Positions 26,447 through 60,635 of a stretch of DNA of 64,000 nt are shown piece after piece. Within the stretch, counting starts at the first letter, position 1, and every line of letters begins with the position of its first letter. The stretch spans positions 26,321,514-26,385,513 of the forward strand of contig OX453286.1 in NCBI GenBank assembly GCA_949710005.1, read 5' to 3'. Both the position numbers and the translations under genes were made by a program. The stretch comes from Ricordea florida (taxonomy: Eukaryota; Cnidaria; Anthozoa; Corallimorpharia; Ricordeidae). A model generated the notes under the pieces. It saw only the letters and a list, made by a program, of their open reading frames with translations. It did not search any database and was not told where the DNA came from.

Positions 26447-26511
26447 ATGCATTCTCTAAGGAGGCGGTTGAGCCAGAGATGGCAGACAAGAGACAGCGAA
26501 TCTCCCGTTAA
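26440..26511 (+). promoter_or_regulatory. Overlapping upstream ORF at the RasGEF start
   Basis: An ATG at 26440 in AAATGGACA opens a 23-codon frame that ends at TAA 26509-26511, overlapping the main start (26447) out of frame. Its context (A at -3, G at +4) is at least as good as that of the main ATG. If transcription starts upstream, it would reduce initiation at the main start. Confidence 0.5.
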
Positions 26512-29500
26512 CGAACCATGCCAAGGTGAAACTGGCGATGAAGCCGCGAATGTATCGCAAGGAACGGCGCTTCTACCACAGACAGAAAGTCGAACAGTGG
26601 AAGATTACAGCTCTGAAGAACTGCACTTTATTGTTGACTATGTAGGGTCGGCACCAATTTCTGAGGCTCAATCGTTAACACGAATGATGGAAACTTTGAA
26701 AAGAGTCAAGAAGCTACAGATTAGAAGAAGCATGAGGGTAAACTTCATCATACGCGACGGAATTTTGATAGTGTCTTGTGTCGGCTCTAATTCTTTAATC
26801 CTGACAGCGCCTCTTTATGCCATTGCGTTGTGTGGTCAAGAACAGCTTCGAGGATTCGATAGTACTTTTGGACTTAACATCACAAGGAAAAAGACCCATA
26901 TGTGTCACGTATTTGAAGCCGGTTCCCAACTTGAGGTAAGCCCTCGGGGAATGAGAGAATATATTAGCTAAAGGTTTTGTTTACCCAAGTAATATTATGT
27001 TGTGTTTTATACCTCTCCGGGGCAGGTATTTTGAAGAGATGTTCTGATGTTTTGATACCTTTAAAGCCTTTGTATCGAGGAAATCAGCTTGTAAACGTGA
27101 GAAACAGCTGTGTGTTATGTCCACTCATGAAAGTTCTTAGCGGCTGAGCGTCCAAGTACTTGTCAGAAATTGTGTTATCGTGCGCTGTACAAAGATCCGA
27201 ATGAGTTTTTCTCCAATATTATGCAATAACTGTGTGTAGATTTTTTCAACTAATGTATTATATTAAACTTTGAACTGATTTTTACCTTGTCAAATCGAAA
27301 GCCAAATACGTATGCTAAGCGATCTGAAGAAGCAGGTATTCGCTGATCCATTTCAATCCATTTCCTCGTGTCACGCTACTACTTTCGGAGTAATATTTTT
27401 TAATAACTTCAGTGAGCGCACGCCGGCCACTGTTTTGTATTATTTTCTAAAACACTGAATGAAATGTTGAACTGATTAGCCATATGATAATATGTGAAAT
27501 AGTTATTGTTGTTGATAATGGTTTAATATGAAATCCTGTGGGCACGCTACTTCTTGTTTTTGTTCTTCGAGTTGTTTTGTTCGGACACAAAAGAGCGTTT
27601 CGTACGATTTTATTTTTTGCTAGTGATTTCCTCCGAAAAATGGTTGCATTTCTGGTAAAAAGGTCGTATACACTTCTTATTTCAACGAATGTACAATCCA
27701 TCTTAAATTTGTTTACGTACTTTTGTTTTCTATTCGGCTGTTAATATTTATATTGAAGTATAATTGAATGCTGTGCTTCACTGGTTGAACAACTCACGCC
27801 GAAAGTACCAGAATCTTTCAGCAGTCACGTTTCGATGGTTTCTTCTTTTTTCTTAATTTAATAGCAGTGCGATTTTACAATGTATCTGAAATTAAATTAC
27901 TGTAATCCTTTCCTTTTTCATTTGCGCGACAAACAAATCCGTTGCGCATTGACTGTTTCATGGAAGCGGAACGAATTTTCTGAAGCTCAAGGTCAACAAA
28001 CAGCTTTTAAGTTCGTTATAAAAGTGTATTTGAACTTGATTCAAAAGCTTACATTGATTGTGTCAAAAATGCTTCAAAATATGTTTCACGACTTTACTAA
28101 TCCTGCCAACCACATACGATAAAGACCATGTAACGAAAAAAAAAAAAAACAAGCGATGACAGCACTGATAAGAGTTCAGATCCGTGCTTATCAAGTGGGT
28201 GGTCGATTTTGTTTAGTAATCCTCCTTTACAAAGCAGCGCACATGGTGGTCTATGTACTGTCATGTGGAAAGATAGCATGGCCAGATTTCCGTATCACCT
28301 CATACTTCATCATGCTTGCTGTAGCTGGATTGTTTTGGGTAATGGATGAGCGAGCATTTCTTATTTTCAAAGAATGAAACGGTATAATTACAGCTTACAT
28401 AACGAGTACGCGTTATACGGAAATTTAGCCATCATAACAGTGTTATTGAGTTAGATTTTTTAACCCACAAGATCTGAGTAATAAATGTAATTCTCTCAAG
28501 TGAATTTCGCACCTGCATGTCCCTTTATGTTACCTCTCTTTTGTGTCTTGCTTACCACTGCAATCAAGCGATGAGAATATATTAGAAATAGCCCTTCTGA
28601 AACCCTACAGAAAAATTGCCAAACTTTACAAAAGATTCTAAATTGTTGTCTGTAGACAGAGCCCTCTATTAGAGTATTTGTGTGAATAATTATAAATTAT
28701 AACATTTGTAGCAAATTTACATGTCTTTCCTCTGTACCTTCTATAGGCTGCAAGCATTGTGAGAACAGTTGCACTGTCATTCAAAGTTATTGGTAAGATG
28801 ACGAGAGAGAAACTTGAGAGAGCAAACCGACGAACAAGAAGAACTCACTCAATCAGTAGCTCAGAGCGTACACGCACAAATTCTGAAGTCTCAACAACCT
28901 CAACAGTGGGTAGTTCATCAGAGAGAAGACTCCAGCATGTGCAGTGGAGGCACAACTTAGAGGGTACATCTGGTCGCAAATCTTCACACAGTAAAAAATT
29001 TAATAAGAACAGTGCCAGTCCATCTATACTTCGTCATCCCTCCAGCTCACATACCTCAGGTCGCCATGTTGAGTTTTCTGCCTTGTCTCCTGTGCCATCA
29101 GATGGGAGTGACTGTGACGGAAGGGAGACTGCAGGCCAGAAGAAGGAGCCAAAGTCTGGTTTGGAAGGAGTTATATCAGTTCAAGCTGATGTCCATTCTG
29201 TGCCTTCATCTGATATACCTGCCCCAATCTGGGTTAAAAGAGATGGTACGGAATCAGTTAGAAGAAGCAGGTCACCTTTGGTTACCAGCAGTATTCTTTT
29301 AACTGCAAATAGAAGTCCAGGTATGGACCAAATTAGTCATTCAGTTGGTGAGGATCAAATTCACAAACGCAAACAAGAGACTCAGTCTCCTGTTCATGTA
29401 GTTCCTGAGCCAAGTAAAGTGAACGAGACTCATCTGCAATCGACTCCTGCAGAGTGTTTACCAACAAGCCTTCATGTTAAACGAGCATTAAATGAAAGTT

Positions 29501-32500
29501 TGGAAAAGGTTGCTGCTCAAATAGATCTTGGGCCTGTAAAGCTTGAAAATGAAACTGCCTCTGAGAATTTTACAGTATCTGGTTCTTTCCTACCAATTGA
29601 ACGCTTTCATAAGCAAGTGGTGTTCACCTCTGATCACACCCAGCAGGGTTTTGACAGTGTTGACAAATACCAAGGCCAACCTCCAGAGCTTCTACCAGGC
29701 TCAGATGGTGAAGATCCAATAGAGACTGAAATGTTACATCTTGCTATAGAGGCTGTTAAAAGAGGGGAAATGGCACAAGTTGAAAAATATTTAGACAATG
29801 GATTGCCTGTGGATGCACATGATTGTGCAAGAAGAAGTTTACTCTATCATGCAGTCTTGCTGGGTTATGTTGAATTAGCACAGCTATTTCTAAAGAGGTA
29901 ATACCTCTTATAAACCAAGTTCAAGGTCCGTACTGTAAGTTACGGACCAAGCAGAAAAAAGAAGGATCTGGAACTTACAGTACAGACCGAGAAAACAAGG
30001 TTTGTAAGATATTTATTATATCTCTGGAGACATTTTGGCGACCAAAACAAACTTTTGAATTTAGCGGGCCACACAGCGAAGTACGGCCCACTATATTGAC
30101 CAATCACAGCATGCGTAGTAAATGAGAGATATAATGATTGTTCTCATGAATGATGAATAGATTAAGTTTTGGCAGCTGTGTGTAGTCTGACATGGGCCTA
30201 TTGTATAAATAACTGCAATATCAAAATGCAGATAATGATACAAAATATATGGAGCAAAGATATTTACAACCTTCATAAAAATATCATATATATTTTCTAC
30301 CTAGTGTGAAACTGGACAAACTCAAAAGAAAAGAGAACTTTGGGTTGTTTTTAGTAATGACAGCTTCTCCAAATTTAAAAAAAGCCTACCTGCCAGGAGA
30401 TCCGTTTTTGTGACAATTAAATCTGGTTATTCCAGACTTGGCTATTTTGCACTCCCTGCTATCTTGAACTCAAAACCTTCGTGGCTGTGAACAGCATATG
30501 CAGTACCTACATATGGATATTAGACATGTAATAACTTACAGTGGTAACTTATAAGCTATGTTATATGTTTTCAGGGGTGCGGATATCAACTGGGAGGGAC
30601 CAGGAGATAAGTCCCCTTTACATGTTGCAGCTTCAGTGGGTAACAGAGCTGTTACTCAGCTTCTCCTTGCACATGGTGCAAATGTTCGGGCCAAGGACAG
30701 TAATTTGTAAGTCTCTGATATATGAAATGTTGGTATGTGAATACAGTGAGGTAATATTGCTTACACCCTTTACGCTAGAGGTTTTGATAACTATTATCAA
30801 TTTAAGCAAAGGTTTTAACGTTTTATGTATCAAGTCAATTATAACATATATGATTGTATTGTTTTATTGTGTGGATTCTGATCACATTGTAAAATGTTTT
30901 TGGTTTTGGGTCAACTGTCTCCAGGATTCTATTTTGATATTACTTTGCATAGTTTTGAACCACTATCCACTTAGAGGGCATTTGAACTGTCTTTTGTGTT
31001 TCCATATCACCTTGTATTTTATTCATTTAATCAGTTGTACACCACTTCACTTGTCTGCTGGGCATAGAAGCAATCTAGAAGTTTCATTTCTTTTGGTGGA
31101 ACATGGTGCCAGAATTTATGAGAATAACATCCATGGTGTGAGACCGGTGGATATAGAACCTGTAAGATGTTGACTGATTTTCTTTTGAATAGTTTTTTAG
31201 TGTGTATACTTGTACTCTTGGGTTTGAGACTTGCTCTTGTACTGTAAATCTACATAGATTTTTGGGGCGTCTTTGAACTACCAGTAGGCCTTGTTCTTTT
31301 GGATCAGAGCAGGCATATAAGTGTTGTTAGTTAAATAATTTCCTCTCTTCCATATATCCATGTTTCAAGCGTTTTCTTTTATAAAACTGACAGAAAAACC
31401 TGCAAAATTCCGGAAAGACAACTGATACATGCAGGTTTCTTTTTTTCTGACAAAGAATCTTTCCCACCACGACCAGAAGTTTAATGCTTTCAAATACAGC
31501 TTGTCATGCCAATGGCAAATTACCTATAACACAGGGAAGCCTGCAGTGCCACTGATCTCTGCATACTGTTGTCTCTTTCAGGAACTTAAAGAGATGCAAA
31601 GATTGTTGGTACAATCGGCCTGTGAGGGGTTTGCCTCAGCAGATCTTACAAAGTCTCGATCTAATTCAGGAGCATCATCACTCAACCAGAGCACAACAAG
31701 CACCAGCGTAAAATCCAAATCATTAACTTGCTCACCGCATGTGGAACGATTGACAACGTTACGTAAAGGATTGTTTCAGCACAGGAGGTCATCCAGTCTA
31801 TGTTCCATCTCCGGAGGCCACAGAAGTCCAGAGACTGGTAGAGGAAAAGCCCCGATAAGAAGGACAGAGAGCATTCATCTGTCGCAGACATCGAGTCCCA
31901 TGCTGAGTACGTGGTACATTATTTGTTTGAAAATAATTACGTTGTTGTAGAAACTGTGCCCAGGAAAAGTCTATCTCCTTTATATTTGTTCTTTACATTT
32001 CTTTCTCATTAATATTCATATTTTTGATCATCCGGACGCTCAGTTATCCAGTCATTTTGCACAAGGTCCAATGAGTCTGGATAAATTGAGGTTTGATAGT
32101 ATTATCACTTCACTTTATTTCCTGCCTTGGTTGCTATTTGTGAAACACTCCTCACTTTGTCTTCCTTGAGATATTCATATAATTTTAGTCTCTTGCTATA
32201 TTCTTCCAGCAAATTCCAGGAAAGGGGGTCTTCAGTGGATGCATAATCTGCAAAGAGCAACTCAAAACACTCCTCAAGCAGATTCTAAATCAAACCCAAA
32301 TGTACCAGATAATCACAGCTACACAGATGAACAGCAGGGTGGCACTAAAGAAGTGGTGAATAATTTGTCTCTTTCAACCACAAAAACGCAAGAAGACGCA
32401 AGTCCACCAGTAACTGGTGATCTTGTTTCTACTTATGATGAATCCAAGCACAAACTTGTCACGGCAGAGGTGCTTTTGATGGAAGATGAAAGTGAAAAAA

Positions 32501-35500
32501 ATGCTGATCTTAATGTCTCGGAAATATCGGAGGAATGGCAGCTAAACAGTGCAAAGACGCCACCAAGAACAAATGTAACAGAAGCTACTTTTTCAAGCCC
32601 TGATGTACCACAAACATCTTTTCTTCCATTTGATATCTCAACATCTCCTGACTCTACAATACCCTCTGCAGGATCAAATCCAGTGTCACCTTTTATTCCA
32701 AAAAGATCTGTTCCAGAAAGAGTGAGCACATCTGTTTCTGATGCTGCAGCAGTGTCTGACCTTATCAGGTTTGGTGACAAACCTTCTCCTATAGTTGTTA
32801 GGGTGGAAACAACTTGCCAGACCTGTGAGGTTTCTGAAGATACTAGCCTTTCAGAAGAAGTCAAACAACCATTGAAGAAACATCGGAGACCATCCAATGT
32901 ACGACAACCCAGCATTGAGTCAGAGCATTCAGTGGTAAATAAATGCTTCTTACTAACCAAGGTCAAGGGTAATACTGCAAGTTATAGTGGAGACACTGTA
33001 GTGTAGTGGTTAGCGTGTCAGACTTCCGAGCAGGAGGTCCAGAGTTTGAGCCCTGGTAATGGCACAGTGTTGTTTCCTTAGACAAGAAACTTAACTCCAC
33101 ACTGTCTCTCTCCACCCAGGTGTATAAATGGGTACCAGCAATATAATGCTGGGGGTAACTTGTGTGGTTTCCTTAGACAAGAAACTTAACTCCACACTGT
33201 CTCTCTCCACCCAGCTGTATAAATGGGTACCAGGGATATAATGCTGGGGGTGACCCTGCGATGGACTAGCATCCCATCCAGGGGGGAGTAGTAATATTCC
33301 CAGTTTCTTCATGCTACAGACATCGGGATAAGCTTCGGCCATGTGAGCCTTAAGGCCCATGTGTGCCTTTACCTACCTTATCTTACCTTTACTGCAAGTT
33401 ATGGACTCGGGTATTTTGTTCAGATTTATAGTCCAAGCATAAAGATGCATGCTATAAGCCCACGTGGACAAAAAAGCAAGGTTCCATAGCTTACAGTGCA
33501 GTCCAAGAAGAGGATGTAACATTTTATCATAACTCTGAGGAAAAAAATTTAAGGAACTGGTTCATTGGCAACAGATAAGCAAATTTGATTTGCTTTTAAA
33601 ATGGGGTTTATTAGTTATCAGAGACATGTTGCCAACCAAAGCAAATTTTTCAAGTTAGTGGAGAAAATAACACATTTGTAGTACCATGTTTATTCAAATA
33701 TGTGGTCAACTGCAAGTTAGTGCCCAACTTGAATAAGCACCCATCCTAAAGGCAGAGAACATGAATAAGTGCCCATGAAACCATGCACAAAATAGACATT
33801 TGTTATCTTTATTTAGAGTGGCCAAAGAAGTGTCTCAGAATGTGAGGAAAGCTCACTGTTAAGCACAGGCTCCCACTGTGCAAAAGACGAAGAATATGTT
33901 ATTACTGCAATGGAACCAGTTGTCCTTCTTTCTGGTAACCCAGAGTGTCATTCAAGTTTATTGGCATATCTCTGTCTTCCAAAAGCGTCTGGTCAGCTTA
34001 TTGCATTGGCTCATATGGATAGTGCATCAAGCTTCATTAATAACAACATTGCTGTGCTCATTGGCAATCTGTTCAATGTAAGTGAAACCAACACTTTTCT
34101 GCCCTCTCATCAATGACGATGCACAAGGGAGCTTTGTATAAGATAACGTATTTCAGCACTGAGTCGTTCCCTCCTTCTAAAAAAACAAACAAAGAAAAAC
34201 TGAAGAGGAAAAAGCTCATGTTTTAAAAGAAGGAAAAGTAATGATCAGACGCAAGAAAGTAACCATTTGCTAAGCCTTACCACTAAGGTACACGGCCTTT
34301 ACAATGCCTTTACCTAGGATTCTTGAGCTTACAGGTAGATGGAGAATTTGGTTGAATATGAACTCAATAAAAAATGGTCAATCTCTATATTTCTGTTATT
34401 TGTCTCCATTACTGTATATTGATATATCAAGGAAAAGTTTAATACTGATCACTGTTAAGTAGATGGGAAAGAAAAAAATATATGATGATAACTTTAAATG
34501 AGGGCAAAAAGGTTCTAAGCATAATTTTAGTTTTAGCTGTTGTAACCTTTGTATGATTTTGGTTTTCTAGCTTGAGGGTGCAGACAGCCGCAAGAGGGCT
34601 GTAGAGGCCGGACTTTTAGAAACAGTTTTGAAATTGGTGGACAGTTCAGAACCTATACAGGTTAGTGGTTCGTATGTCACATACCATCTTCCAATGTATT
34701 CTGTTGTTTTAACTTAATTGACCCTTTTTGCCATAGTCCTTACACAGTATCTTCATATCTTTCTTTATTTATTTTGCCATAAATATATAAGTTGATACAA
34801 AATAGTTAGATTATGAGGTAAGGGAGCCCAGAGAAGCAAATGAGGCTTATGTAAAGAGCTACCTTTTGAAATACTTTTGAGTTGGAAATGAAATACTGTT
34901 ATTGGCAGGCGAGATCACTTAATAATTATGTAAGTATATCTTTACTGACAAAAACAATCATTCACATCAGACTGCAGAAGTGATCTCCATACAAGAACTA
35001 TGCAATGAATGGCTAACAGTTAATGAGAACTGCAGAAATGATCAACTCAGACATAAATTGATCTGACACCAAATTCTCCAGACTAACATAGAACCAAATA
35101 TATGGCAGTTGCCTGAGAGAATTGTTGCTCAGATCTTTAAGGAGATCACTGCATATTTTCATTACTGTCATTCACTATTGTATTGATATCAATACGAGAA
35201 ATTGCAAGCTGATTGCTATTAGGACTTATAAGGTCAATATTATTGATTTTCTTTTTTTTACACATGCCCGTTTTCTTCAAAAGTGACATTTGAGTAGCAA
35301 GTTTACATAATGATATTGTTGTAAAAATCTATCCTTGTTTTGTTTGTCTGTCTCAGAGTACATGCCTGTCCATTTTACACAACATTCTGGAGTTTAACAA
35401 AGAGCAGGAGTATTCATCAGCTCTGAAAACAATTCCACTTGAACCAGTGCTGAACCTACTCCAGACCAGTGATGTGGACAGTGGAGCATTTGATCTGAGA

Positions 35501-38500
35501 CACACAGATTCACCACCACCCGGCAGCCATGACAAACCACGACATCGCAAGAGAAGCACTTGTAGCCAAAGCTCCTTTGATGATCGTCCTCGTGAGATGT
35601 CTCCCATCACTCTCAGTAGAGTGTCGGTACAAAGGAACAATTCTGGAGCATCAGATGTGAGATCAGAAAGCTGGCCACATCATGGAGGGTATACAATGCA
35701 AAAGAAAAATAGCATTTGTAGTATGGGAAGTTCTGTTGATGGTGACCATTCATTTCCACTTTACAGGTACTCTAGATCCAGTGGTGTCTTTTGTTGTAAT
35801 CTTGACGTTGGTGCTATCTCTTTATTTGATAAAATTGATCTAATGCTTTTGTACTTAACAGTCCTGGGTTTGGCCACAGTCATCTTCCATTAATGGATCT
35901 TCACACAAAGACAATGCCCAGACTTGTTGCCACCAAAATGTTGTCAGCAAGCAGTGTGCATCCCAAAATGCAAGTGGAGCTGGGCAGTACAAGGTACAAT
36001 TGAGTCTGTATGGTATTCAGGCAACAGATAATATACACGGTCTTGTTTTGTATTTGAGGTGCCCTCTGCCAGGGTTGGGTGGTGCAGTGACGGGTGTGTG
36101 CAATGACAGTGCAACTTAGTGATACTTAGTAGGGTCAGAGTGCAATGAACCCTACCCAGTCCACCCCTCAATAGCAAAAAGCCAGCCACAAGGCCATTAG
36201 CCAAAATCCCCCCATTAAGTGCAATGGGATGTAACTGGCCCAGTGGGGACAGTAACAGGCAGTAGGTGCAAATGTGTCACCATCCTGTGTCAGTCAAGAT
36301 ATAGAAAGAAAGAAAATAATATGAATGGTCAGCCAAATCCCATCATTTAGAGGTGCATTCCCCTGAAAGTGGGTTCCCTTTTTGTAACCGTTGGGAAGTG
36401 GTTACATTTTCAGATAAGGAAGGCCATTTGTTCATGGTTCTTTTAAATATCTGTACATCTCTGAGTAGATTTACATTTTATTTTAATTGTAGTTAGTCTA
36501 TGTTGATATGCTTCAACCTTTTTTCCAGGCCACTGTCCTTGTTACTGGAGACCCTGACAGACAGTAACCCTGACATTGTGGTTTATTCTGCTGCCACTCT
36601 CGCCAACATTGCTTTGACTTTAGAAAACCACATGCAGGTTAGTTTACCTGTTGAGTTTTAGCAATATCCTCTTTATTGAAAATATGCAAAATATGCTTCT
36701 CAGCTCCTCAATGAAACTTTATACTGGAATTTTACAACGCGAGGTTTTTGTGTGAAACATACTTCTGTACAATATGCAGTATGTGGATAAGACTCAGGTC
36801 AAACTTTACGAATTCTGTGTTTCTAATGAACAGCAACTTTAATAGTAATATAGCTTTTATCATTTAAAACTTGGCACATATGAATTGCATTCTGTCACAT
36901 TCTAGCTGAAGAATAAAAAGAGCAATCTCGTTTGTTTGTTTCGTATATTCCTTGCATGTTCGTTTTTTTTTGATCAGATGGAACTGTCTGGAGTTTCTGA
37001 TGGATTGAAGCAGATGCTTAGCTGTCCTGATGCCAGGTGAGATTTGATTCATATGCATTACAGAATACTGATTGTAAATGGTTTGAGCTCAGGAGTCTGA
37101 GTAGTTGTTTGTCGAGTTTGATCGTCCCTGTGTAGGTACACATCTGTACTGTAGTTCTGCGAAGAACAGTTGATGAGGTTGACTGAGATTTTGATAACCT
37201 TATCAACCTTGTGATCATCAGAGTTAAATGATCGCTTGTCATCATGTGGTGATATTTGTCTGTCGAACGTTTAGTTGTGAGATTGGTTGTTTAAGTTGTG
37301 ACAGTGATGGTTCGACTATAGAGAGCTTCCGTTTTTTGTGAGAAACGAAAGTAAATAATAATAATAATGAACTTTATTTGAGTGTCAACTGTATTTAGCA
37401 CTGCTGTACTAATTGGGGACACTGTAAAGCCCAAATAAAATGAAATCAAATCATATTAAATTAAACCAAATCAAATGTTGGTCTTTGTGGAGAGGGGAAA
37501 ACCGGAGTACCCAGAGAAAAACCTCTCGGAGCAGAGTAGAGAACCAACAAGCTCAGCCCACATATGACGCCGAGGCCGGGAATCGAACCCGGGCCACATT
37601 GGTGAAAGGCAAGCGCTCTCACCACTGCGCCAACCTTGCTGCAAACACTGCACCAACCTTGCTGCCAACACTGCGCCAACCCTGCTTCCAACACTGCACC
37701 AACAGGGGTTTCAATAGAAGCCGGCAACCGGCGAATTTCGCCTCCTACTTCCCAAATCATCGCCGCCTACTTTCTAACATTAAATTTCTTTTTGGTCCCT
37801 TGAGTTTCTTGAGTCACAGAATTTCTCACCTGTTACAGCCGCCTACTTTAATATGGTCGGCCGTCTACTTTAGAACTTATTGAAACCCCTGCACCAAGCC
37901 TGCTCCCAACACTGCACCAACCCTGCTCCCCAATAAAAGTAAAAAGTAAATAAAATAAAATAATAAAAAGTAAACGTCTTACTTTCAGGTTGTATTTAAT
38001 GCGTGATCACAAGATATATTATATATTTTATATTCTGTCACAGAGTGAGATACCATGCAGCCCGTGGCTTGATATATCTGGGACATATGAATGTTGGAGG
38101 CGTGTACCTATTCAAGAGAGTACCAGGTAATGTACTAGTGTGGGGGTGAGAGTGGGTGTCGGGGGTGGAGGTGGAGTGAGGGCTTAGTAGTACCCTGAAG
38201 TAATTGGGTGTGGCCTCATGGTGTCCTCCTTTAGACCCCAACCCCTGTCAAACTAAGGTGAAGTGTACCCAAACTTTACATGTATCTCAAACCTATATGT
38301 TCCCTGCTTTACATGCAGCTGAAAATTATAATAATTATAATTATAATAATAATATTAATCTTTATTGAGGAAACTTTTTCGCAAAATGTGGTTTTCGAAA
38401 AGGATCTAAGAAGATCCCCTTTGAAATGCCAAGACCCAGCTACTCTTTAGCACTGCATTAGATTGGAAATAGTATTCTTATTTTTCCTTGTTAGGTGATG

Positions 38501-39861
38501 AGAAAGTAGATGTGCTGTTTGCAGATTCATCTGGAGAGGAACAACTGTTCGCTAGGTGGTAATTCATCTCATAATTTTAGTAGATAATTTACATTTTAAT
38601 TTACAGAAAAAAACAGAAGGAAATCATGCACCGTGACATGTTTGGATATCTGATGAAACAGGGCTCGTTATTTCATTAACTTCTCCTTTTAGATAAATTC
38701 ATTCGAGAATCTATATCATTAAGTTTTCATTTATTTTACCTTATTTTCGATCCTGCTGGTAGCATTTCCATGGCTATGTTTCAGATTAGGCCGTCATGTT
38801 CTACACTGTCATCGTCATGTTATTTTTAGTTAATAATTAAAATCAAGAGCGAATCATTTTCTCCTGTTAAAATTAACGCTTGAATCATAAGATGTGACCC
38901 CAACTTGTTGTGGTTGTTTTCAGAGGTGCGACAGTGGAAAAGATTGTCGAGATTATCACCAACAACCCGTCGCTTCTCTGGGGAGGATTAAAGCTGCCGC
39001 TTCCATCTTCACGGGGCAAAAAGCACTCACTGCACAAAACGAACAGTTCTGGCTCAAGAGTCACGGCTACAGAGGAGCAGATTATAGACTTCCTGCTGAC
39101 AACTTACAAGAGCTTTGTAAATTCCACTATTCTCATGAGATTGCTGCTTCACCGGTATGTGCCAATTGAATACCCTAATGTAATTATGTAGTTAATTTGC
39201 AGGCAATATTTTGTTAATGTCGCATTTTTAATGTAAACGTGATTTATACTTCGTATCAGTTTTAAAACAAAGACCTAATTATAATAATATTGATAAAATG
39301 ATGACGATAATGATCATGATAATGATAAAAATAGTAATATTAATAATGTGTTCTTCATGAGGAAATAGAAGCAAAGTCATATTATACTGTTTAAATTACT
39401 TCACGTAGGTTTCATGATCCGTGGTTCGGTAAGTACTTTGATGGCAATCCATCGACAGGCCAAATGGAACAGTTCAGTCCATTACCTCTGCTACACATCT
39501 TCCTGATGCGAATATGGACGGCGTGGTTAGGCAAATATCCGGAAGACTTTATTAACAGTCCTACTATGGCGGTAAGTTTGATTTCTACTTTATTTTCTAG
39601 TCTTGCTTAATGCCCCAAATTGTCAAATCCTATATGCACGCAGTCTTCTGTTTACTGTGATCATGTACCGTCGTTCCCAGTAATCTTCGGCATGAATCCA
39701 ATTTTCTCATTTACCTTTTTCCTTTGCACCAAGTTGTTTTGGTCTGGGTCTCTGTCTTTCCCGTTTACCGTCAAATTTATTTTGTTTTTCCTTGTAATTT
39801 CCTCTTGTTATTTCACGGCTTCATGTCCAAGCCGACTTTCATCTTGCTTTCTCCGCAATCC

Positions 39862-39959
<98 letters not shown>

Positions 39960-51900: not shown

Positions 51901-54900
51901 TGGTAAATACGTTCGGCTTCTATTGCGAGACCTCGAATTTTGTTTTTTTTTTCCGAGCTCGCCTGCGGCGTGCCGTAAAATACATCGATTTTTACTAGTT
52001 GTTATGTATCATTTTGTTTCCGGCATTCCAGGGCTTATGACTTGCTACAGTTTCCTAAAGAACTTGCCAGGCAGATAACGCTCATCGACCATGGTAAGAT
52101 TCCTAAAATTAATTAACGTTCAACTGCAGTTAAAACTTAGTCCTCGATTTGCGCATGAAATTGGCCCGACATTTTCCTGGCGTAATGAGAAAGGCCCACG
52201 AGGCCTCCTTTGTTGAGATTTGTTTCAGAGGTAGGATACTCGTCTTCTGATGTTTGTATTTGGCGATATTAGCGCCCGTGATTTTGTTCACCTATCTTCT
52301 GAGTTAGCATGTGTTTTTTTTTTGTCAGAATGCTTTTGTGCTGTCACGTCCACTGATATTCAGAAAAAGCTGGTCATCGGAACTGGAAAACGCAAAAAGT
52401 CACCTTTGGAGGAGAAGCTGGCTGTAGAAAAAGTAGCTGACAGATTCAATCAGGTAAAAAACCGGGATTGAATTCGTGTTGTTTAGTCAAACTTCACTAT
52501 GTGCTGCCAACAGCACTAAACTGGAAACAGTCGTAGAATGGCTTCTTATAAATATGACAATAGACCATTTTACAGTTGTGTGCTTAGTACCCTGGCCTCT
52601 GAATAGAAGCGAGGCTGGAGGTGACCTTGTTTTGTTACAAACCTTCCTGTTCTTCATATGTAAATAATATGATTTGCACATGAAAGGCAGGGAGGTATGT
52701 AACCAAGCAAGGTCACCTCCAGCCTCGCTTCTGTTCAGAGGCTAGGTTCCTTAGGTCAAAACTGTAAAATGGCCAATTCGAATGCAGTATACAATCTGAC
52801 TGCCTTCTTATTGATGATGAATTTCTTAAAAAGATTGTCAGCATGTTCTGATAGGCAGTTTTCTTTGCTATATGCAATTTGACGATGTGATGTTTCAAGC
52901 TTCATTTCAGTTTCTTATGATATCCATGTTCATTTGAGTCAGTAATCTGAACGATACATTGATGTTTATTTTCTGTTTATTTCAGCTGAGCACTTGGGTA
53001 GTGGCTGGTATTCTTACAGAAGAGACCGCTGAAAAACGAGCGAATATGTTTATCAAATTTATTGAGACAGCCAAGGTAAGTAACGTTTTCTGACTCTGCT
53101 GGGTGGGGATAGAGGAGGGTTTCCTATAGTAACATGAGATCCCCGCCGTACCACCCTATTATTACGACCACCTTACATATTTAACAAAACCCAGAAGTTT
53201 CCTTCTGGTGAAACCTCGCCAATCCCGTTGTTACAACCAACAACCCCTTGTTGGACTCTCTTGTAATTATCTTCATGAAAGTTATATTTCTTAATCTTAT
53301 TAGTGATGCATTGGGCGAAAAACGGTGATAATCAAACAACGTGACTTGTTGAATGTCCGATGAAACACGAATCTGTTATTGGGAAGTTATTTTGAAATAC
53401 GCGATACCGTGTTTCATCTAAGGTAAAGCACTGAGAAGAGAGTTGCAAATACAACGCGCAGTGAACTAGTTTTTTTTATGGCCCGGCGGCAGTGAATGTA
53501 AGTAAGGGATGAATATTACAGGATTTACTAAACTGTAACGTTGTTGATAATATAAATTGTTCATTTGTCACACGATGTGGTCACTGGATGTTGATCGCGA
53601 CGTTTCGACTGCTTACTGCTGGTCTTCTTCAGGCGATGGGGTCGACTGTAACGTTGTTATTGTTGTATATGTTTATTCCAGCTGTGCCTAGAGTTGAGAA
53701 ACTTTAACGCAGTCATGGCTATTGTGGTGGCTGCTCTTGGCAGTGCGCCAGTGAGACGCCTGCACAAAACTAAAGAGGTAAAGCGTCATTCGAAAGTTGC
53801 GATTTGCAGTTTATAACTTTTTTTTCCAATTATTGAACTCTTATTAACCTGTTAACTTAACTCCTGTGTAAACTGAGTGGTCTGTATTTTATCAAATTAA
53901 AGGAAAATGTGTTGCCCCGTTTTGTGCGGTGATTTCGTTCATTCCGTGTTCCAAACTTGAAATTATAAATGTTACATTAACCCAGTACGACCGGAGGAGT
54001 GAACTTCACTGTGTTTCTTCACTCCTAGCTTGTTCCTAAGGAATGCCTGGAGCAGTACACTAAAATGGAGATACTTATGGATACAAAGGTATGAAACAGT
54101 ATTTCAGTGATCTTAACAAACGAGGACTTATTTTAGGAAAAGTGCACATTGCAACCAGGGAGGATAATCAGACACAGTTTGATGCTACGCTGGTTTGAAA
54201 TAATGAACCGTAACTTTAATAGTTACAATAGCGCTTTCTACTATTACTAAAAATAGATTTTGAAACGTGATAACCCATGACACCCCCCGCACAGACTCAG
54301 ACAAACATTGCGACCAGCTTAAAGGAAATATAGTAGCGAGAGCTGTAAGATTGAAACAAAGCAATGGAAGATTTCGTCAAAAAATGACTTAGCGTTCTAA
54401 AGGGAAGCGGCATGGTTGGTACCAAACACTGTTGTTGGGGTGAGTGTAAGACAGACTCAAGATATGCAGATAAATGGCCAAAATCACTCAAAGAGTTAGA
54501 GGAATCAGGGAAGAAAGTATTCATTCCTTTCCCAAAACCTTCGCGAGACATGGCAAAGTGCAAGCGTTGGCTAGTGGCTTGTTCGCGTGAATTTTTTACT
54601 GAGAAAAACATAACAAGAAACACTTATATTTGTGCTCTTCACTGGCCCGGCGAAAAAGGTCCAACAGCCGAATTTCCCGATCCACTGAAGGCAAATTTAA
54701 GACCAGCGCAACTAAGTCGACCACGTGCTCCAAAGAGAAAAGCACCGAAAGAAAGAGAAAATCCAGCGTCAAAGAAACAGAAATTATTCAGTGAAAACTA
54801 CGAGGAACAATTATATAACGACAATACAGTTTCTGATGATCATGATCAGGAGTCACAAGATCAAGAGTCTCCTTTACTAACTATGGTTGAACCGACAGTC

Positions 54901-57900
54901 GACGAAAGCAGTTTTATTGCTGAAGAATGTGTTGATGAGGAACGTGACGTGATCGATATTTAAGCTAACTCTTCAGGAAAGCTGGTTTCTGACCAAGGCT
55001 CTCAGACTATATATTCAAAATACGAGTTGTCTGCAAAGGTCGAAACTATGATTTTGAAAAACGACGTCTCTACAACGCAGTCACAGGGTCCTACAATAGT
55101 GAGTACTTTATCTTACGAAAATATCGTGCAAGATGTAGCTCTCATGAAACACTTCACCGGCCTCAAGCCTTCCCAGTTTGAAGTTTTGCATGATTTTCTT
55201 GACGGTGTTTGCCCTTTAGAGACAATCAACTACTGGAAAAGCAAAGATTGCTCAGCAACAGAGAACGCAAGAACTGGCCCGAAAACTGATTTTTCATCAA
55301 GAGAAAAACTTTTCATTTGCCTTTTGAGACTGAAGAGGGGTTTTACTCTCAAAACTATTGCAGCTCTTCTTAGTACACCAAAGAGGAAAATTAACTGCTC
55401 CTATATTGGAAAGATTTTTACAACTTATATTCAGTTGATGTATGTAATTTTTAGAGACATGCAAAAGTTTATGTTTCCAGAGAGAGCCCAATTTAGCAGG
55501 TTTCTCCCTAAGGTATTTAAAACCATGAAGAACATACGCTGTATTGTTGATTGCACGGAATTTAGTGTAGAATGCTCCAGGAATTTTGCCAGGCAAGGAA
55601 ACACTTTCTCTTCCTATAAGCACACCAACACATTTAAGTGTCTCATTGCTGTAACCCCCAGTGGTGGAGCATGTTTTATTTCTGATTTGTTCGAGGGTGA
55701 TATTGATGATGTTCGCATCTTTAAGGAAAGTGGTCTGTTGAAACACCTGAAACCATATGACTTAGTACTGGCAGATCGTGGTTTCACTGTGCAGGATCTC
55801 TTAAATCCTCTCCAAGTGCAGTTAAAAATTCCATCCTTTTTAAAAGGTAGAAAAAGTCTAATTGCTGCAGAGGAATTGGAAACACGTCGCATTGCAAAAG
55901 CTAGGATTCATGTGGAGCGTTTCAATCAACGCTTAAAGCAGTTCAAACTAGTCAGCAGAAGAATACCTTTGTCTCTTGCTCCTCTTGCAACTCAAATGGT
56001 AGTAGTTGCTGCATGCCTTGTCAATTTTCAGGAAGTCCTTTGTAAGTAGACTTTATATTTTAACTGAAAAGCTCTAACTAATGGATATATGGCAGGTCAT
56101 CAGCTTCAAACAATAGTCTTAATTGGCATTTTGTGTGCATTCCTTTGGGGTGATAGGGATGGGTCCTCGTCTGGGGTGGATTCATTGGCTCATTTGATGT
56201 ACCATGATTCAAGTGATCTCGGATCACTGATCCTGATCCGGTCATCCCAAAGAAATGCACCCTTTATCCACTGGGTCTTTATATTGCAGAGATATAAGGT
56301 AAATTTTGATTGACATCTTGTAAACGACTGGTATTGCATTTCTGTAAATTGATGCACGAATTGGAAAATTGACTTCATTTAGTGTCAATACTCTGAGATA
56401 AGGACACCTTCCTTTTATAACAACTTCTATACCCTCGTCATTGAAACCCTTGTAAAACTTATTTGAAGAAAGAGCCAAAGCGAATGACAAATCATAATAC
56501 GATATAATGTTATTAATGGTAATATGAATAATAATTTATTAATTGATTCCAACAAGCTATGTTTATATTCTATACAAACAACATTTTGAGAAATACATCT
56601 TATTTACATTTTTACACCTGTACACAAAATATGGATGTTAACTTTTACTAGTAAACATTTGAAAACTCAAAGAAACTTCATTTTTACATGTAGCAGGAAC
56701 AAGAATTTGATTTGAATTTGACAACTGCACAGGCTACAGGTCAATGACTGTAACTACAGAAGTTTCTTTATATAAAAATATCAAAATTTCAGCTTACACT
56801 TTCTGATGGCCATTTCTCAGTGTAATCATCAGAAAATTGAAATGCCTTTACTGGACAGAAATACAATGATATAAACATGAAAACATTAACTGTTACCTGA
56901 GAATAAACCAAGTTATGATAATCCTACTACTGTACATTTTTGCCACTTTCATCAACCAAGATTCGAACACTAAGCAAACAAAGGCTGAACATTGATGTCT
57001 ATAAGTCTCCTTTTAAAGGCTCATGTTCACCCAAAATGCATTGCACACCCTCTAATCCAGAAAAATGATTTTCGGGTAGTTGAAAATTGCAGTATTCAGT
57101 ATGTGTAGAGTCAAGCTTTGGCCAAGCAACTCTGCTCTCATCGACGGCCAAACGTGAGCCCTCACTAAATAATGATCGCCGTTTACCGTGTCCATCATAT
57201 CGTGAACAAAGCCCGAATCTACGTAATTTCTTCCCCTTTTCAAAGGTTTATCCGTCATGTGCCCCAGCCCGTCTTCGATGTCTTCAGGATGATCGGCAAC
57301 ATTTTGGATGGACTCTAGCGCGTAGTAATGCACGTGCCCATAGTTGAAGAGCGAAGGAATGTTTTGAGACGGAAAAAGACGCCAGCCTGCAGTCAATGGA
57401 ATACACGGAATGGATATCGATCCAGAATTTGTCTTTACATTAGAATTTTCGTATAGAACTTTGGCAGCAAACCATTTTCCATGATCGATTTCCGGATCAA
57501 GGGTGTAATAATTCCCGCTTCTCACAGTCTCTCACTCGCTGTACAAGATCTTCTCGTTTACCGCTTGATTTTAATCCTCTACATTTTAGCCACCGTTTTA
57601 GCTGGTCTACAGTGTAGTTTTCCGGTTCTCTTTCAAATTTGGAGCCAGGAACGCCGTCCTCTTCGGTCAGAACTGTAAGGGAATGAAGCGAACGACTCGC
57701 CATTTCCCTTGCAGCTCTCATAGAAGTGGAGTTTGTTTGTCTGAGTCACGCGGGGGGTCTAAAATTTCATGACGTCATTAGTATAAAGCGCTATTCACAG
57801 ACCCTACGTTTCGACACTCCTGTCAGTGTCTTCTTCAGGGGGTGGTGATTAGGGAAGACTGTGAAGCTCCTTTTATACCCGCGATGAATGGTTTCGCCTA

Positions 57901-60635
57901 ATTACAAACTGGGGTTTGCTTGCTATGGGAACGGTTGCGACTATGTTATATATATTTGAATTATATATAACATACATAATTATATTATATATATATTATA
58001 ATATTCGAATAACGATACACTCCTTTGTTTCAGTTTTAGCTCCTTACCCCCACCCCTTCCCCCCGACCCACCCAAACTCTGTTTTGTTTCAGTGTTGTTT
58101 GTTAGTTAAGCCATGGTCTTTTACTTTTGTTATATCCTTCTCAGGATAATTACAAACGATATCGCCAGGCATTGGCTGCTTCACCAACTCCTTTGGTTCC
58201 GTACTTTGGTGAGTTATTATTTTGTTTTTGATCGGCCAAGTTGCATGCTTCGACAAAACGTGTCGACACAAAGGCCTTTGAGACAGTTTGTGAGTAAATA
58301 TTTTAAACATTGTACTTCCCCTCCCCCCCTCCGCCCCCCCCCCCTCCCTAGTCAATGTTGTTTCAGGAACGTTAGACCGTAACTTTAGAAAATAATATAT
58401 ATACCTCTCTTTTTTTAGTTATTTCTATAGCAAAAAAGGATCTGAACGTTTGTTTGTTTCCTACGGACAGGTATATACATGAAGGATCTAACCTTTGTCA
58501 CCGAAGGAAACCCAGACTTTTTTAAAGGAGGGCTGATTAATTTAACCAAAAGGAGACAGGTGCGTCACTCTCCGTCCCCTCACGGGAACTTTGCTCTCCA
58601 CGCTCCCTATCCCCTTGTAGAAACTTTCTTTCTGAGCTTCGAACAACATTGCGTTTAACCACAGTAATGGGCACTTTTCTCATACACTTAGCTTCTGTTG
58701 AAGATTTTCTTTATGAGTTTTCCTTCGGGAATAGAGGAGCAAAAACAGGCCTTTAAGCAACGCGATTTTACTGGACAAACGAGTTAACCGTATACCGCTC
58801 ACGTCCAACAATTTGAGTCCCGAGTTTATGTTTAGCCATCCCTCGTTATCTGGGGTAATTTTGATTTTGGACAAACATTTGGAATATTTAAGTCGAAGTT
58901 TTACTCCAAATCTTCGTTGTCTTGTCTGTTTGCAAAAGCGAGTAGTCAGAATTATTTCCAAATAAACTTTTCATGCTCACTCAGACATCTATCTTCAGAG
59001 ATTTAGAACTATTGAAACTTTTTGATATTAGACAACTAGAACTGGGTAAACTTACGTTTTTTTAGACACTCTCTTCTGCCAGTAAAGTTTAAGGATTACT
59101 TTTGTTTTAGAAAAGAAGTTCAAAGCTATGACTCTAGACAAACTGATAATTTTAACCTTCCCATTTGTAGAGCCAACCGTCGTAAATTTTCTGGCAGTTT
59201 CCAGGGACCATCCTATTATAACTCTTTAACAAATGAAATCAAAGACACTACTTCTCTTTCCTCATTTAAAACTAAGCTTCGTAAATACTTTTATGAGAAC
59301 TATTAATTATAATTATATAAATATATTATATATACACATATAATCTTTGTAAATAGATATCGTTTTCTTCAAAGTGTTTCATCATTTGGTTATACGTTTG
59401 CTACTTTACTTCACTCGAAAATAAAATTCATATCTTCGCGCCACCGTGTAATATCCTCTATGTATTAGTTACCCCCTTTTATCAATTGTCATGCAATTAA
59501 TATGTTTACACTCGATCCTGGCCTTGTAAACTTATGCTTTTATACTTTAAGGGAGTCCAATCTCTATAAGCCTTATGGTTTCTTTTTGGGCTTCCTCACC
59601 ACTTTGCTTTCGTGTACTTTCTATGTTTCATCTTTCCATTTCTATTTTTTCTGTGGTGAAAAAAAAACCTCAATATATGAAAACCGTACTATTGACTCCA
59701 TTGTTTGACCTCTTTTTAGATTTACTTGATTATTGACGAAATAAGACGTTGTCAAGGAGACCTGTACAACTTTCAAGAGGTGAGTTTGCGTTTTTAATAA
59801 ACGGCAAAAACAACTTAAAATATATAAGCCAATAATTATATGTTATTTACATTTCAATAAGAATTTTATAACTTCAGCTTTAAAAATGTGCACATTTGAA
59901 GCAGAGCGGATCTCAAAAGGCAGAATGTTCCATGTGTCCACTATCCTATGAAAGAAACTATTTTTCAGTACATTTGTGCTGGCAAATGTCTTCTTTAATG
60001 ATGTATTACCAAACTGTCGAAACGAGTAGCGGTCCTCTTGAAAATAAAATCCAAAAATTGAGAAAAGTCCACATCCATAAAACCATTGATGGCCTTAAAC
60101 AAAAAAGTGACATCAAATAATAAATACCTCTGTTCAAGGGTTAACATCTTGAGATTACTTAAACGAACATCATAAGGTTCATTGGATTTTAGAATGAACT
60201 TGGTTGCCCTATGTGAAGAATGGTAAAATGGGCCGGTGAAGTTGAATTCTTTCTAGTTTGTCTATATTACAAATTGGCTACTCGCAAGGGGAGAATTTTT
60301 ATCCAAGGGGAGAATTTGTATGCGCTGTTGACTATGCCTTTGTCATTTTAATACTGTGTAATACCATTTTGATTCTGATTTTATCCGTGCTTGTTTTTTA
60401 GGTTCCAGAGGTCCGTGATTATCTTGCCAGTCAGGAGATTCATACCGGAAATGAATTGCACAACATTTCACGACAGCTCGAGCCAGGTAATTCAGAAGCT
60501 GACAAAACAGGCTCCATCGTTCCAGGCTCACAGTTCAAGTCGAACGCTGTGGGCCGTTTGGCAGGTAAAAGATACATGAGTTTTTCACGGAGTTCGACGA
60601 CTTTGGAAGCTTCCCTGCCGGATTCGAACTGTTGA
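26447..60635 (+). CDS. Giant multidomain Ras/Rap guanine nucleotide exchange factor: PTB-ANK-ARM-REM-FERM-RasGEF, 37 exons
   Basis: Exons: 26447-26935, 28747-29897, 30575-30706, 31035-31161, 31582-31906, 32210-32934, 33817-34077, 34571-34660, 35357-35766, 35862-35993, 36529-36637, 36978-37036, 38044-38126, 38495-38555, 38924-39154, 39409-39571, 40193-40288, 41146-41220, 42508-42591, 42909-42970, 43080-43148, 44237-44357, 44819-44914, 46029-46147, 46547-46601, 46933-47260, 48004-48168, 50644-50986, 52032-52093, 52329-52453, 52986-53075, 53682-53777, 54029-54088, 58145-58208, 58471-58559, 59720-59779, 60402-60635. They sum to 7041 bases (2346 residues) with every phase closing. Domains by residue: PTB ~55-185, ankyrin ~487-650, armadillo-like ~1000-1100 and 1280-1365, REM ~1430-1550, FERM F2-F3 ~1565-1775, Ser-rich linker ~1776-2050, CDC25/RasGEF ~2050-2275, Ser-rich tail. 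The start is the first ATG after an in-frame stop at 26429. CDC25 domains load GTP on Ras-family GTPases. The rest suggests recruitment to phosphotyrosine or NPxY receptor tails at the membrane. I know of no vertebrate protein with this order, so no symbol is given. Confidence 0.92.
26612..28805 (+). other. PTB domain coding segment (exons 1-2)
   Basis: Residues about 55-185. [20 protein letters not shown] is a PTB first strand and helix. [18 protein letters not shown] and [13 protein letters not shown] are the central strands. CHVFEAG leads into the final amphipathic helix, [14 protein letters not shown], encoded by exon 2 across a phase-0 intron. PTB domains bind NPxY peptides or phosphoinositides. 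I cannot tell which subfamily this belongs to or whether it needs phosphotyrosine. Confidence 0.82.
29711..31640 (+). other. Ankyrin repeat coding segment (exons 2-5)
   Basis: About four ankyrin repeats at residues ~487-650. Hallmarks are [20 protein letters not shown], then [20 protein letters not shown], then [11 protein letters not shown] and [11 protein letters not shown], then VEHGARIYE. Introns fall within repeats. Likely a protein-interaction module. Confidence 0.9.
29903..30110. repeat. Dispersed repeat with a palindromic core
   Basis: It contains GTCCGTACTGTAAGTTACGGAC and its near complement, GGAACTTACAGTACAGACC. Downstream parts (GAGACATTTTGGCGACCAAA, GCAAACTTTT-like) match the element at 32951-33670 (GAGACATGTTGCCAACCAAA), so both are copies of one family. 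Confidence 0.6.
32951..33670. repeat. Second copy of the dispersed palindromic repeat, split by a SINE
   Basis: It starts CTAACCAAGGTCAAGGGTAA, is interrupted by the SINE at 32986-33389, and resumes GGACTCGGGTATTTTG, ending near GTTGCCAACCAAAGCAAA. It lies in RasGEF intron 6, immediately after the donor at 32935. Confidence 0.6.
32986..33389 (+). mobile_element. tRNA-derived SINE, family 2, with 13-bp target-site duplication
   Basis: The head carries an A box (TAGTGTAGTGG) and a B-box-like GAGTTTGAGCC. The body is two copies of a 95-bp unit (TTTCCTTAGACAAGAAACTT, CACTGTCTCTCTCCACCCAG, AAATGGGTACCAG) at 33069 and 33164. The tail includes GCGATGGACTAGCATCCCAT, a LINE-like 3' end. TACTGCAAGTTAT lies on both sides (32973-32985 and 33390-33402), the target-site duplication. 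Confidence 0.88.
37357..37703 (-). mobile_element. tRNA-derived SINE, family 1, minus copy with expanded 5' end
   Basis: A reverse-orientation copy with an intact B box (GGGTTCGATTCCC) and A box. On its 5' side the first 23 bases of the SINE are repeated about 3.5 times (AACACTGCGCCAACC units at 37630-37703). Further units reappear at 37891-37935, beyond an inserted MITE. Confidence 0.88.
37704..37890. mobile_element. 187-bp MITE inserted in the SINE 5' tandem array
   Basis: The ends are AGGGGTTTCAATA and its reverse complement, TATTGAAACCCCT. The interior has repeated CCGCCTACTT words. The array continues on both sides (GCACCAAC before, TGCACCAAG after), so it inserted after the array had formed. 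Confidence 0.8.
39864..39956. repeat. (TG)46 microsatellite
   Basis: An uninterrupted TG tract of about 93 bases in RasGEF intron 16. It is a likely length-polymorphic locus. Confidence 0.98.
40314..40667. mobile_element. Fold-back element related to the 10273-11037 element
   Basis: It opens GAAACACAGGAAATTGGGAT and ends AGTTTCTTTAGAAACTACAT. Internal arms (AATCCAATTCTGTC versus GACCGAATTGGACG; AAAATCGGACGACC versus GTCCGATTTG) fold back on each other. It shares both end segments with the element at 10273-11037. Confidence 0.7.
41540..42095 (+). pseudogene. LINE 3' end (RT C-terminus remnant plus 3' UTR)
   Basis: In one frame [14 protein letters not shown] followed by ILFKKAL resembles the last residues of jockey/CR1/L2-like ORF2 proteins (YWN.LP..VR....S..FK..L). 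The following 3' sequence contains a (TTA)n tract and ends AATAAATAAATGAAATTAAA. It lies in RasGEF intron 18 and is broken by frame changes. Confidence 0.6.
43340..44130. repeat. Probable dispersed repeat with (ACG)n tract in intron 21
   Basis: It contains GGAGCTCC-type inverted words and GCTCGAAGAGCCACAGAGCG, then a (ACG)n run at 43551-43571. A 118-codon open frame at 43502-43858 has no recognisable domain. The edges (CATCTGTGTATGAACCCATG; CTATCTGTGTATCAAATGAT) weakly resemble the 106-bp tandem unit. The family is unknown. Confidence 0.35.
44358..44818 (+). other. Intron 22 with a GC-AG splice pair
   Basis: The exon ends CTTAAG and the intron begins GCAAGA; it ends CCTCTAG. No GT donor in the right phase exists nearby, and the exons on both sides carry conserved FERM sequence. 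A non-canonical GC donor is therefore the simplest reading. The intron also contains a SINE. Confidence 0.8.
44464..44745 (+). mobile_element. tRNA-derived SINE, family 3
   Basis: The head looks like a tRNA: A box TGGCCGAGTGG, anticodon stem-loop CTGGACTTGTAATCTGG (anticodon TGT), B box GGTTCGATTCC. The 5' and 3' acceptor halves do not pair well and no CCA-ready end exists, so it is not a functional tRNA gene. The body ends with GCCCCGTGGGGACGAGCC and a TATG repeat tail. It lies in RasGEF intron 22. Confidence 0.78.
44985..45710 (+). mobile_element. tRNA-derived SINE, family 2, with expanded 95-bp tandem array
   Basis: The head (GGTAGTGTAGGAGTC, then GAGTTCAAGCCCTGG) matches the copy at 32986. 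The 95-bp body unit starts at 45064, 45159, 45254, 45349, 45444, 45539 and 45634, with the last one cut short. The usual LINE-like tail is missing. It lies in RasGEF intron 23. Confidence 0.92.
48497..48787. mobile_element. hAT-like MITE, 291 bp
   Basis: Terminal inverted repeats CAGTGCTCGACCTTA are perfect over 15 bases. GTTTC flanks both ends (48492-48496 and 48788-48792), a possible 5-bp target duplication. The interior is full of ACTAGTCC words in both orientations. It lies in RasGEF intron 27. Confidence 0.82.
49556..49680. repeat. Partial copy of the fold-back element family
   Basis: GCTGACGCTCGAAACGTCAGC is followed by ACCTCCCTTTTACCTTACGG and TCAACTCGTTTGATT, the same order as the right end of the element at 10273-11037. 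Confidence 0.65.
51000..51400. mobile_element. Fold-back element with ~105-bp hairpin
   Basis: A near-perfect hairpin at 51063-51170 has arms AAGATATGAATTTCATG and its complement, around TCGTTCGCTGCGCTCACTCA. It matches the hairpin at 10651-10752. Flanking words (ATACGCCACTTTGG, CCCAGTAAAACAC) match 10440-10530 in reverse, so both are copies of one longer element. Confidence 0.75.
51507..51690 (+). mobile_element. Diverged family 1 SINE
   Basis: The A box is AAGGTTGGCGCAGTGATGAG and the B box region GGGTTCAATTTCC, followed by TTATGTGGGTTGAGCTTG and TTTTCCTGTCTC. The tail differs from the other copies (AACCAATACTTCCAAATTCC), suggesting a separate subfamily. Confidence 0.75.
52558..52777. mobile_element. 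Hairpin MITE in RasGEF intron 30
   Basis: The left arm (GACCATTTTACAGTT ... GAAGCGAGGCTGGAGGTGAC) is complementary over about 65 bases to the right arm (GTCACCTCCAGCCTCGCTTC ... AACTGTAAAATGGCC). The loop is about 80 bases. Confidence 0.85.
54412..56049 (+). pseudogene. THAP-DDE transposase with one in-frame stop
   Basis: One reading frame of 546 codons runs from 54412 to 56049 with a single TAA at 54961-54963. Residues 1-90 are a THAP zinc finger (C-x4-C at CCWGEC, then ALHW and a C-terminal FPDP-like end). The DDE catalytic core has its first Asp in [10 protein letters not shown], its second in LVLADRGF and Glu in [10 protein letters not shown], typical of the DDE_4 superfamily. Apart from the nonsense codon it looks intact, so it died recently or the stop is a sequencing or allelic difference. 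Downstream initiation could still give the catalytic half without the DNA-binding THAP. Confidence 0.88.
56135..56260. mobile_element. 126-bp MITE nested in the ISL2EU element
   Basis: The ends are GTGCATTCCTTTGGGGTGA and, reversed, GTGCATTTCTTTGGGATGA. The centre holds GATCTCGGATCACTGATCC palindromic words. It lies just past the transposase stop. Confidence 0.75.
57052..57721 (-). pseudogene. ISL2EU second protein (SAP domain, YqaJ-type partner), truncated and frameshifted
   Basis: The start at 57721 gives a ~50-residue lead and then a SAP domain ([20 protein letters not shown]). Near 57520 the frame shifts: RVRDC continues as [20 protein letters not shown] only in another frame, consistent with loss of two bases in a TGTG run. 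The homology carries on through [20 protein letters not shown] and [12 protein letters not shown] to AHVWPSM and then stops. The SWIM zinc finger and YqaJ exonuclease domains expected next are not found between 56050 and 57050. Confidence 0.78.
58317..58350. repeat. Polypyrimidine (C-rich) tract
   Basis: CCCCTCCCCCCCTCCGCCCC and further C runs in RasGEF intron 34, about 120 bases before exon 35. Confidence 0.8.
58860..59310 (+). pseudogene. LINE reverse-transcriptase C-terminal remnant
   Basis: Frame-interrupted LINE ending: [12 protein letters not shown], then [15 protein letters not shown], then LPVKFKDYF, then [20 protein letters not shown] and [15 protein letters not shown]. This matches the ends of jockey/CR1/L2-like ORF2 proteins. 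Stops and at least one frame change make it non-functional. It lies in RasGEF intron 35. Confidence 0.82.
59880..60300. repeat. Probable old interspersed repeat in intron 36
   Basis: AT-rich sequence with one 74-codon open frame (59896-60120) and no recognisable domain. Words such as GATGGCCTTAAACAAAAAAG resemble those at 13030-13060. No family could be named. Confidence 0.3.

Follow-up and report, generated by a model that had tools for sequence, protein, structure and literature searches.

A corallimorpharian gene for a multidomain RasGEF combining PTB, ankyrin, armadillo-like and REM modules with a talin-type F2-F3 unit and a CDC25 domain

Exchange factors of the CDC25 type, among them yeast Cdc25, RASGRF1, RalGPS1, SOS1, RASGRP and EPAC2, share a REM module and a full CDC25 domain, and in EPAC an RA domain lies between the two. 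KRIT1, which PDB titles link to Rap1, carries ankyrin repeats followed by a FERM domain on one chain and is not known as a guanine nucleotide exchange factor (GEF), while the PTB proteins NUMB, ARH and ANKS1 are adaptors not known to carry a GEF domain. SOS and EPAC are kept inactive by neighbouring domains until a signal releases them (PMC6767298), and talin F3 binds the NPXY motif of integrins (PMC9198492). Here we describe a gene from the corallimorpharian Ricordea florida (assembly GCA_949710005.1, 538 Mb in 48 contigs; contig OX453286.1, positions 26,321,514 to 26,385,513 of the forward strand; this stretch of 64,000 nucleotides is the window) that encodes a multidomain RasGEF with the order PTB, ankyrin repeats (ANK), armadillo-like repeats (ARM), REM, talin-type F2-F3 and CDC25 (Table 1).

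The gene was identified with a simple, segment-based gene finder run on window positions 24001-61500, using codon scores trained on long open reading frames (ORFs) and then on the finder's own models, together with generic splice-site weights. Stricter settings returned a single large plus-strand gene from 26447 to 60635, the loosest settings moved the start to 24463, and without masking the finder chained exons through an intronic transposon. After splice sites had been refined by hand and with the help of relatives, the final model had consistent phases throughout and a single terminal stop; 35 of its 36 introns are GT-AG, one is GC-AG (donor 44358), and all acceptors are AG. The one gene of 37 exons and 2346 residues proposed in a preliminary description was thereby reproduced by the finder, the refinement and the relatives. 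With the transposon masked and penalties unchanged, the real strand scored 325.7 (one gene, 38 exons, 2361 residues), compared with 54.1 for the reverse strand (three models) and 5.4 to 13.5 for five first-order Markov resamples; the codon scores in this control were trained on this very gene, which somewhat flatters the real strand, and homology provides the independent test. The gene signal at 26447..60635 is not due to chance.

Table 1. Window coordinates of the RasGEF gene, its encoded modules and two of its introns' features
Feature	Position	Strand	Details
Whole gene	26447..60635	+	37 coding exons, 2346 residues; ATG at 26447, TGA ending at 60635
PTB, NUMB/ARH/ANKS1-like	26618..28830	+	about residues 58-191, exons 1-2; profile match to NUMB
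Ankyrin repeats	29755..31600	+	about residues 500-640, exons 2-5; listed Pfam best stretches within 548-621
Conserved block	33895..35766	+	about residues 1010-1150 plus Ser-rich linker, exons 7-9
Armadillo-like repeats	35862..38126	+	about residues 1250-1364, exons 10-13
REM / RasGEF_N	38924..40288	+	about residues 1386-1548, exons 15-17; Pfam 1436-1519
FERM F2 lobe (FERM_M)	41146..44357	+	residues 1568-1682, exons 18-22; 52.2 bits, cut-off 23.8
FERM F3 lobe, IRS/talin-type PTB fold	44819..46980	+	about residues 1686-1790, exons 23-26; IRS 30.9 bits, cut-off 22
CDC25-type RasGEF domain	52032..60485	+	Pfam residues 2064-2248, exons 29-35; 185.6 bits
Intron 22, GC-AG	44358..44818	+	holds predicted tRNA-Thr-like sequence
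DNA transposon	54388..56049	+	THAP-like ORF and DDE_Tnp_4 transposase ORF; intron 33; not part of the protein

All six module types occur in the order given by the preliminary description, with the assignment of PTB, ARM and REM leaning partly on relatives. The CDC25 core, described there as intact, is indeed a full-length domain whose match spans positions 1-181 of the 181 in the RasGEF profile, and its alignment with yeast Cdc25 extends to about residue 2297, in exon 37. The ankyrin repeats scored 54 bits (Ank) and 50.7 bits (Ank_2), and the NPxY-type binder claimed for the N-terminus proved to be a Numb-like PTB when a profile of eight rows was compared with the PDB (NUMB 1.4e-7, ARH 1.2e-4, ANKS1B 0.0022), these three being its closest relatives. 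The conserved block, with a mean majority identity of 0.52-0.66 across blocks 1001-1200, may represent further helical repeats.

A first protein search returned 14 proteins, 11 of them with both RasGEF and FERM_M, including sequences from Oculina, Acropora, Nematostella, Actinia, Actinostola, Rhopilema, Hydra and the sponge Dysidea, as well as the coral-like P0002; source names, where given, read 'uncharacterized' or 'hypothetical protein'. The Nematostella and Hydra genes are LOC5521422 and LOC100197014. Pfam scans of 11 relatives placed RasGEF, FERM_M and Ank over the cut-off in every one, PTB (PID) in six, F3 (IRS) in four, REM in four (P0001, P0002, P0009 and P0011) and Arm in two. Aligned to the 11 proteins of the first search, the exons of the window gene have counterparts, weakly so in the linker exons. 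Exons 15-25 and 29-37, which encode REM, F2-F3 and RasGEF, are 50-100% identical to those of Oculina, P0002 and Acropora (the Acropora isoform being without exon 15), whereas linker exons are looser, as in exon 6 (18-29% in the same three, 0-16% in the other relatives). The start MHSLRRR is common to the window gene and the Acropora relative. Most of exon 1 is absent from the Oculina model, P0008 begins within the ankyrin repeats, and Dysidea lacks the greater part of exons 24-25, which encode F3, and of exons 26-28, which encode the linker.

By sequence and by fold alike, the F2-F3 module is closest to those of the integrin-binding proteins talin and kindlin, and merlin, moesin and 4.1 rank behind these two. 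A profile of seven rows matched talin at 3.4e-15, kindlin-2 at 1e-14 and KRIT1 at 1e-6; the fold comparison was made with the predicted structure of the relative P0015, and MyTH4-FERM fold matches, with a root-mean-square deviation of about 16-18 Å, were not used. In F3, an RW motif aligns with the KRW of talin, and 12 of 14 rows retain its Trp, which we take to be the tail-binding residue. Because the F0 and F1 ubiquitin-like lobes are missing before F2 (Pfam scans of the window protein up to E 1 gave no FERM_N), the module is talin F2-F3 and not a whole FERM; of the FERM claimed earlier, only these two lobes are present. In the predicted structure of P0015, F2 begins at 320, close behind the last REM helix, whose end is at 310. 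Unlike talin, the window protein has a low-confidence linker and its own CDC25 domain after F2-F3, and no rod was found in it. The ANK-then-FERM order recalls KRIT1, but the lobes are far closer to talin, and KRIT1-type domains fell under their cut-offs in the window protein (Ank_KRIT1 17.7 of 80 bits, KRIT1_FRMD8_FERM_C 12.7 of 29 bits).

For the CDC25 domain, the similarity ranking in the PDB was headed by yeast Cdc25, RASGRF1, RalGPS1 and SOS1, followed by RASGRP1, EPAC2, RASGRP2, SOS2, RASGRP4 and RGL2, an order that does not decide the target GTPase. In the segment aligned to EEGNPE of SOS1, the E/D and N positions are kept in 14 of 14 rows. Each of the 58 PDB sequences that matched showed a single matched stretch, so none combined a GEF match with a FERM match. 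DH-PH, C1, EF and cNMP domains were likewise missing from the Pfam scans of the window protein, which up to E 1 gave neither a DH-PH unit upstream of REM-CDC25, as in SOS and RasGRF, nor a cyclic-nucleotide-binding domain of the EPAC type. A parallel in layout is EPAC2 (RAPGEF4), a Rap GEF that also holds a regulatory module between REM and CDC25; the window protein differs in having F2-F3 in the RA position and in yielding no cyclic-nucleotide domain. Immediately N-terminal to the catalytic domain, a CxCPP(D/E)A motif (residues 2037-2043, exon 28) is kept in the window protein and four cnidarian rows; the sponge-like P0026 has CDCPEDP, and Dysidea has no such motif.

A REM-FERM tree of 20 rows, rooted at the midpoint, joined the window protein to stony corals as a branch outside them (99/96 and 100/99), with sea anemones adjoining this group, then medusozoan-like rows, and Dysidea and P0026 apart. 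This position suggests a hexacoral that is probably close to the sampled stony corals but not among them. Each protein search scored the roughly 8000 candidates with the most words in common with the query, restricted to one length range: 1285-4090 residues in the first search, about 530-1680 in the alignment search and 956-3043 in the search with the sponge protein. The latter two (12 and 4 matches) added only cnidarian-like FERM-bearing members and P0026, the remaining matches (P0012-P0014 and P0023-P0025) being RasGEFs without FERM_M. The orthologue set excludes these, and also P0022, a coral fragment of 528 residues that UniRef names FERM domain-containing protein. Six cnidarian-like proteins of 691-789 residues (P0016-P0021) have FERM_M, RasGEF_N in five of six and RasGEF in none; the three of their frames that were read contain RSTTT(T) near the end, as RGRSTTTT in two, and they may be partial calls or long exons truncated at a splice site.

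No bilaterian, placozoan, ctenophore or choanoflagellate was named among the FERM-bearing matches, many of which were grouped by tree position only, and no vertebrate protein of this design was among those returned by these searches. Within this scope of about 8000 candidates and one length range per search, the architecture is likely to be absent from Bilateria, and a large signalling gene may have been lost in bilaterians. These results agree with the earlier proposal of an architecture kept in early-branching animals, here cnidarians and a sponge, and lost or unrecognised in vertebrates; among the literature matches listed, there was neither a description of this protein nor a well-described orthologue of the same architecture.

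We propose, with a probability of roughly 0.6, that the protein is a scaffolded exchange factor that reaches membrane receptors by way of two NPxY-type tail binders, is gated by F2-F3 and loads a Ras-family GTPase. The Numb-like PTB and the talin-like F3 would bind NPxY-type receptor tails and so bring the protein to the membrane, the ankyrin and armadillo-like repeats would hold partners, and REM would brace the catalytic domain. Lying between REM and CDC25, F2-F3 could serve as a docking or autoinhibitory gate, comparable to the regulatory domains in EPAC and SOS; once tails or membrane are engaged, CDC25 would load a Ras-family GTPase, most likely Ras or Rap, at adhesion or receptor sites. 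The gating of CDC25 by tail binding at F2-F3 is attractive but unproven. The linkers retain a number of Ser/Thr residues that have a basic residue at -3, such as those at positions 662 (11 of 12) and 1828 (11 of 13), which suggests kinase control. Overall, the analysis supports the preliminary interpretation as regards the single gene, its modules, their order and its relatives in cnidarians and a sponge; the role of a receptor- or adhesion-coupled Ras/Rap activator is inferred.

Several observations weigh against this proposal. In the window sequence, PTB, ARM and REM all fall short of their Pfam cut-offs (Arm 20.4 bits, just under 20.6; REM 26.8 bits, just under 28.3; no Pfam match reported for PTB). 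The predicted structure is that of the relative P0015 and not of the window protein; its mean predicted local distance difference test score is 59.9 and its C-terminal CDC25 part is poorly modelled, so the REM-CDC25 brace is a proposal only. F3 looks degenerate in Dysidea and scores 19.6 in P0026, under the cut-off of 22, and the Trp is absent from both of these sponge-like rows, so tail binding by F3 need not be ancestral. The proposed role as a whole is read from the known functions of the parts.

Some of these observations would fit a protein whose F2-F3 module contacts membrane lipid or other parts of the same chain instead of receptor tails, with no coupling to adhesion. Many FERM lobes bind lipids, talin's F0 and F1 are missing, and the sponge-like rows depart at F3 as described; set against this are the retention of the Trp in most rows and the closer match to talin and kindlin than to merlin, moesin or 4.1, and we regard this alternative as possible but somewhat doubtful. 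Considerably less probable is a protein that acts mainly as a scaffold through FERM and PTB, its CDC25 activity lost or weak. Such a loss would accord with the replacement of E by D as the hairpin acid in 4 of 14 rows and with a one-residue insertion before LGSAPVRRL relative to yeast Cdc25, RASGRF1, RalGPS1 and SOS1, found in 13 of 14 rows (Actinia being the exception), but the RasGEF profile is covered in full and CDC25 residues 2051-2250 belong to the best conserved stretches of the protein (mean majority identity 0.71-0.80 over 13 rows, compared with 0.74 for the ankyrin block 601-650).

It is highly improbable that two or three adjacent genes have been merged into one model, such as a PTB-ANK-ARM scaffold with a distinct REM-FERM-RasGEF, and we rejected this explanation on the evidence of the relatives. 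Long introns, among them the one of about 4 kb ahead of exon 34 with its transposon, leave room for such an error, as does a gene model that in this species is drawn from genomic sequence. However, relatives of 1739-2342 residues from cnidarians and a sponge, each predicted separately, combine these parts in one protein, and the contigs of several relatives barely exceed the reading frame (2342 residues on at most 8457 bases, 1924 on 6368, 1696 on 5674 and 1914 on 7115). Being too short for such introns, these contigs are probably single transcripts, which argues for one message.

In the gene finding, a first run with low intron cost chained more than 200 chance exons and was discarded. Candidate small exons at 33022, 33320, 34909, 36073, 44466, 45022-45589, 51463 and 51884, mostly products of loose settings (51463 also of stricter ones) and in part lying within 95-bp tandem repeats, were dropped because the chain continues, and the relatives align, without them. 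A putative intron at 39429-39458 was removed, the relatives reading straight through it, which turned a draft of 38 exons and 2336 residues into the final model; the first Pfam scan, the PDB search with the 58 matches and the first protein search used this draft, 10 residues shorter, and Pfam was repeated from REM to the end. The genome holds 17 RasGEF pieces, of which 53667-53783 is the one inside the window.

The introns have contents of their own. The transposon's THAP-like ORF (23.4 bits, cut-off 23.9) and DDE_Tnp_4 ORF (141.8 bits) share a frame with a stop between them, in an intron that separates two CDC25 exons. Much alike 95-bp tandem repeats occupy two introns (33067-33251 and 45063-45677), their units bearing splice-like AG and GT that gave rise to chance exons. 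ARAGORN matched tRNA-Val at 37569-37639 (minus strand), tRNA-Thr at 44465-44539 (plus) and tRNA-Val at 62540-62612 (plus), two of them within introns of the RasGEF gene; these may be tRNA-derived repeats.

In vertebrates, tail binding and Rap activation fall to separate proteins: a GEF, Rap1, an adaptor and talin. A single chain that unites an F2-F3 like that of the talin head with a Rap/Ras GEF could represent an ancestral one-protein integrin switch that coupled tail binding directly to Rap activation. This switch would have existed in the last ancestor shared by sponges and cnidarians and have disappeared either before the bilaterians arose or early in their history, although we consider this unlikely. 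If active, the protein would define a family of exchange factors for Ras-family GTPases whose domains follow a grammar of their own, present without a name among the database sequences of a sponge, sea anemones, corals, a jellyfish and Hydra. It would then tie NPxY-bearing receptors, perhaps integrins, directly to Ras/Rap activation, and would offer a concrete test of adhesion-to-Ras wiring in early animals.
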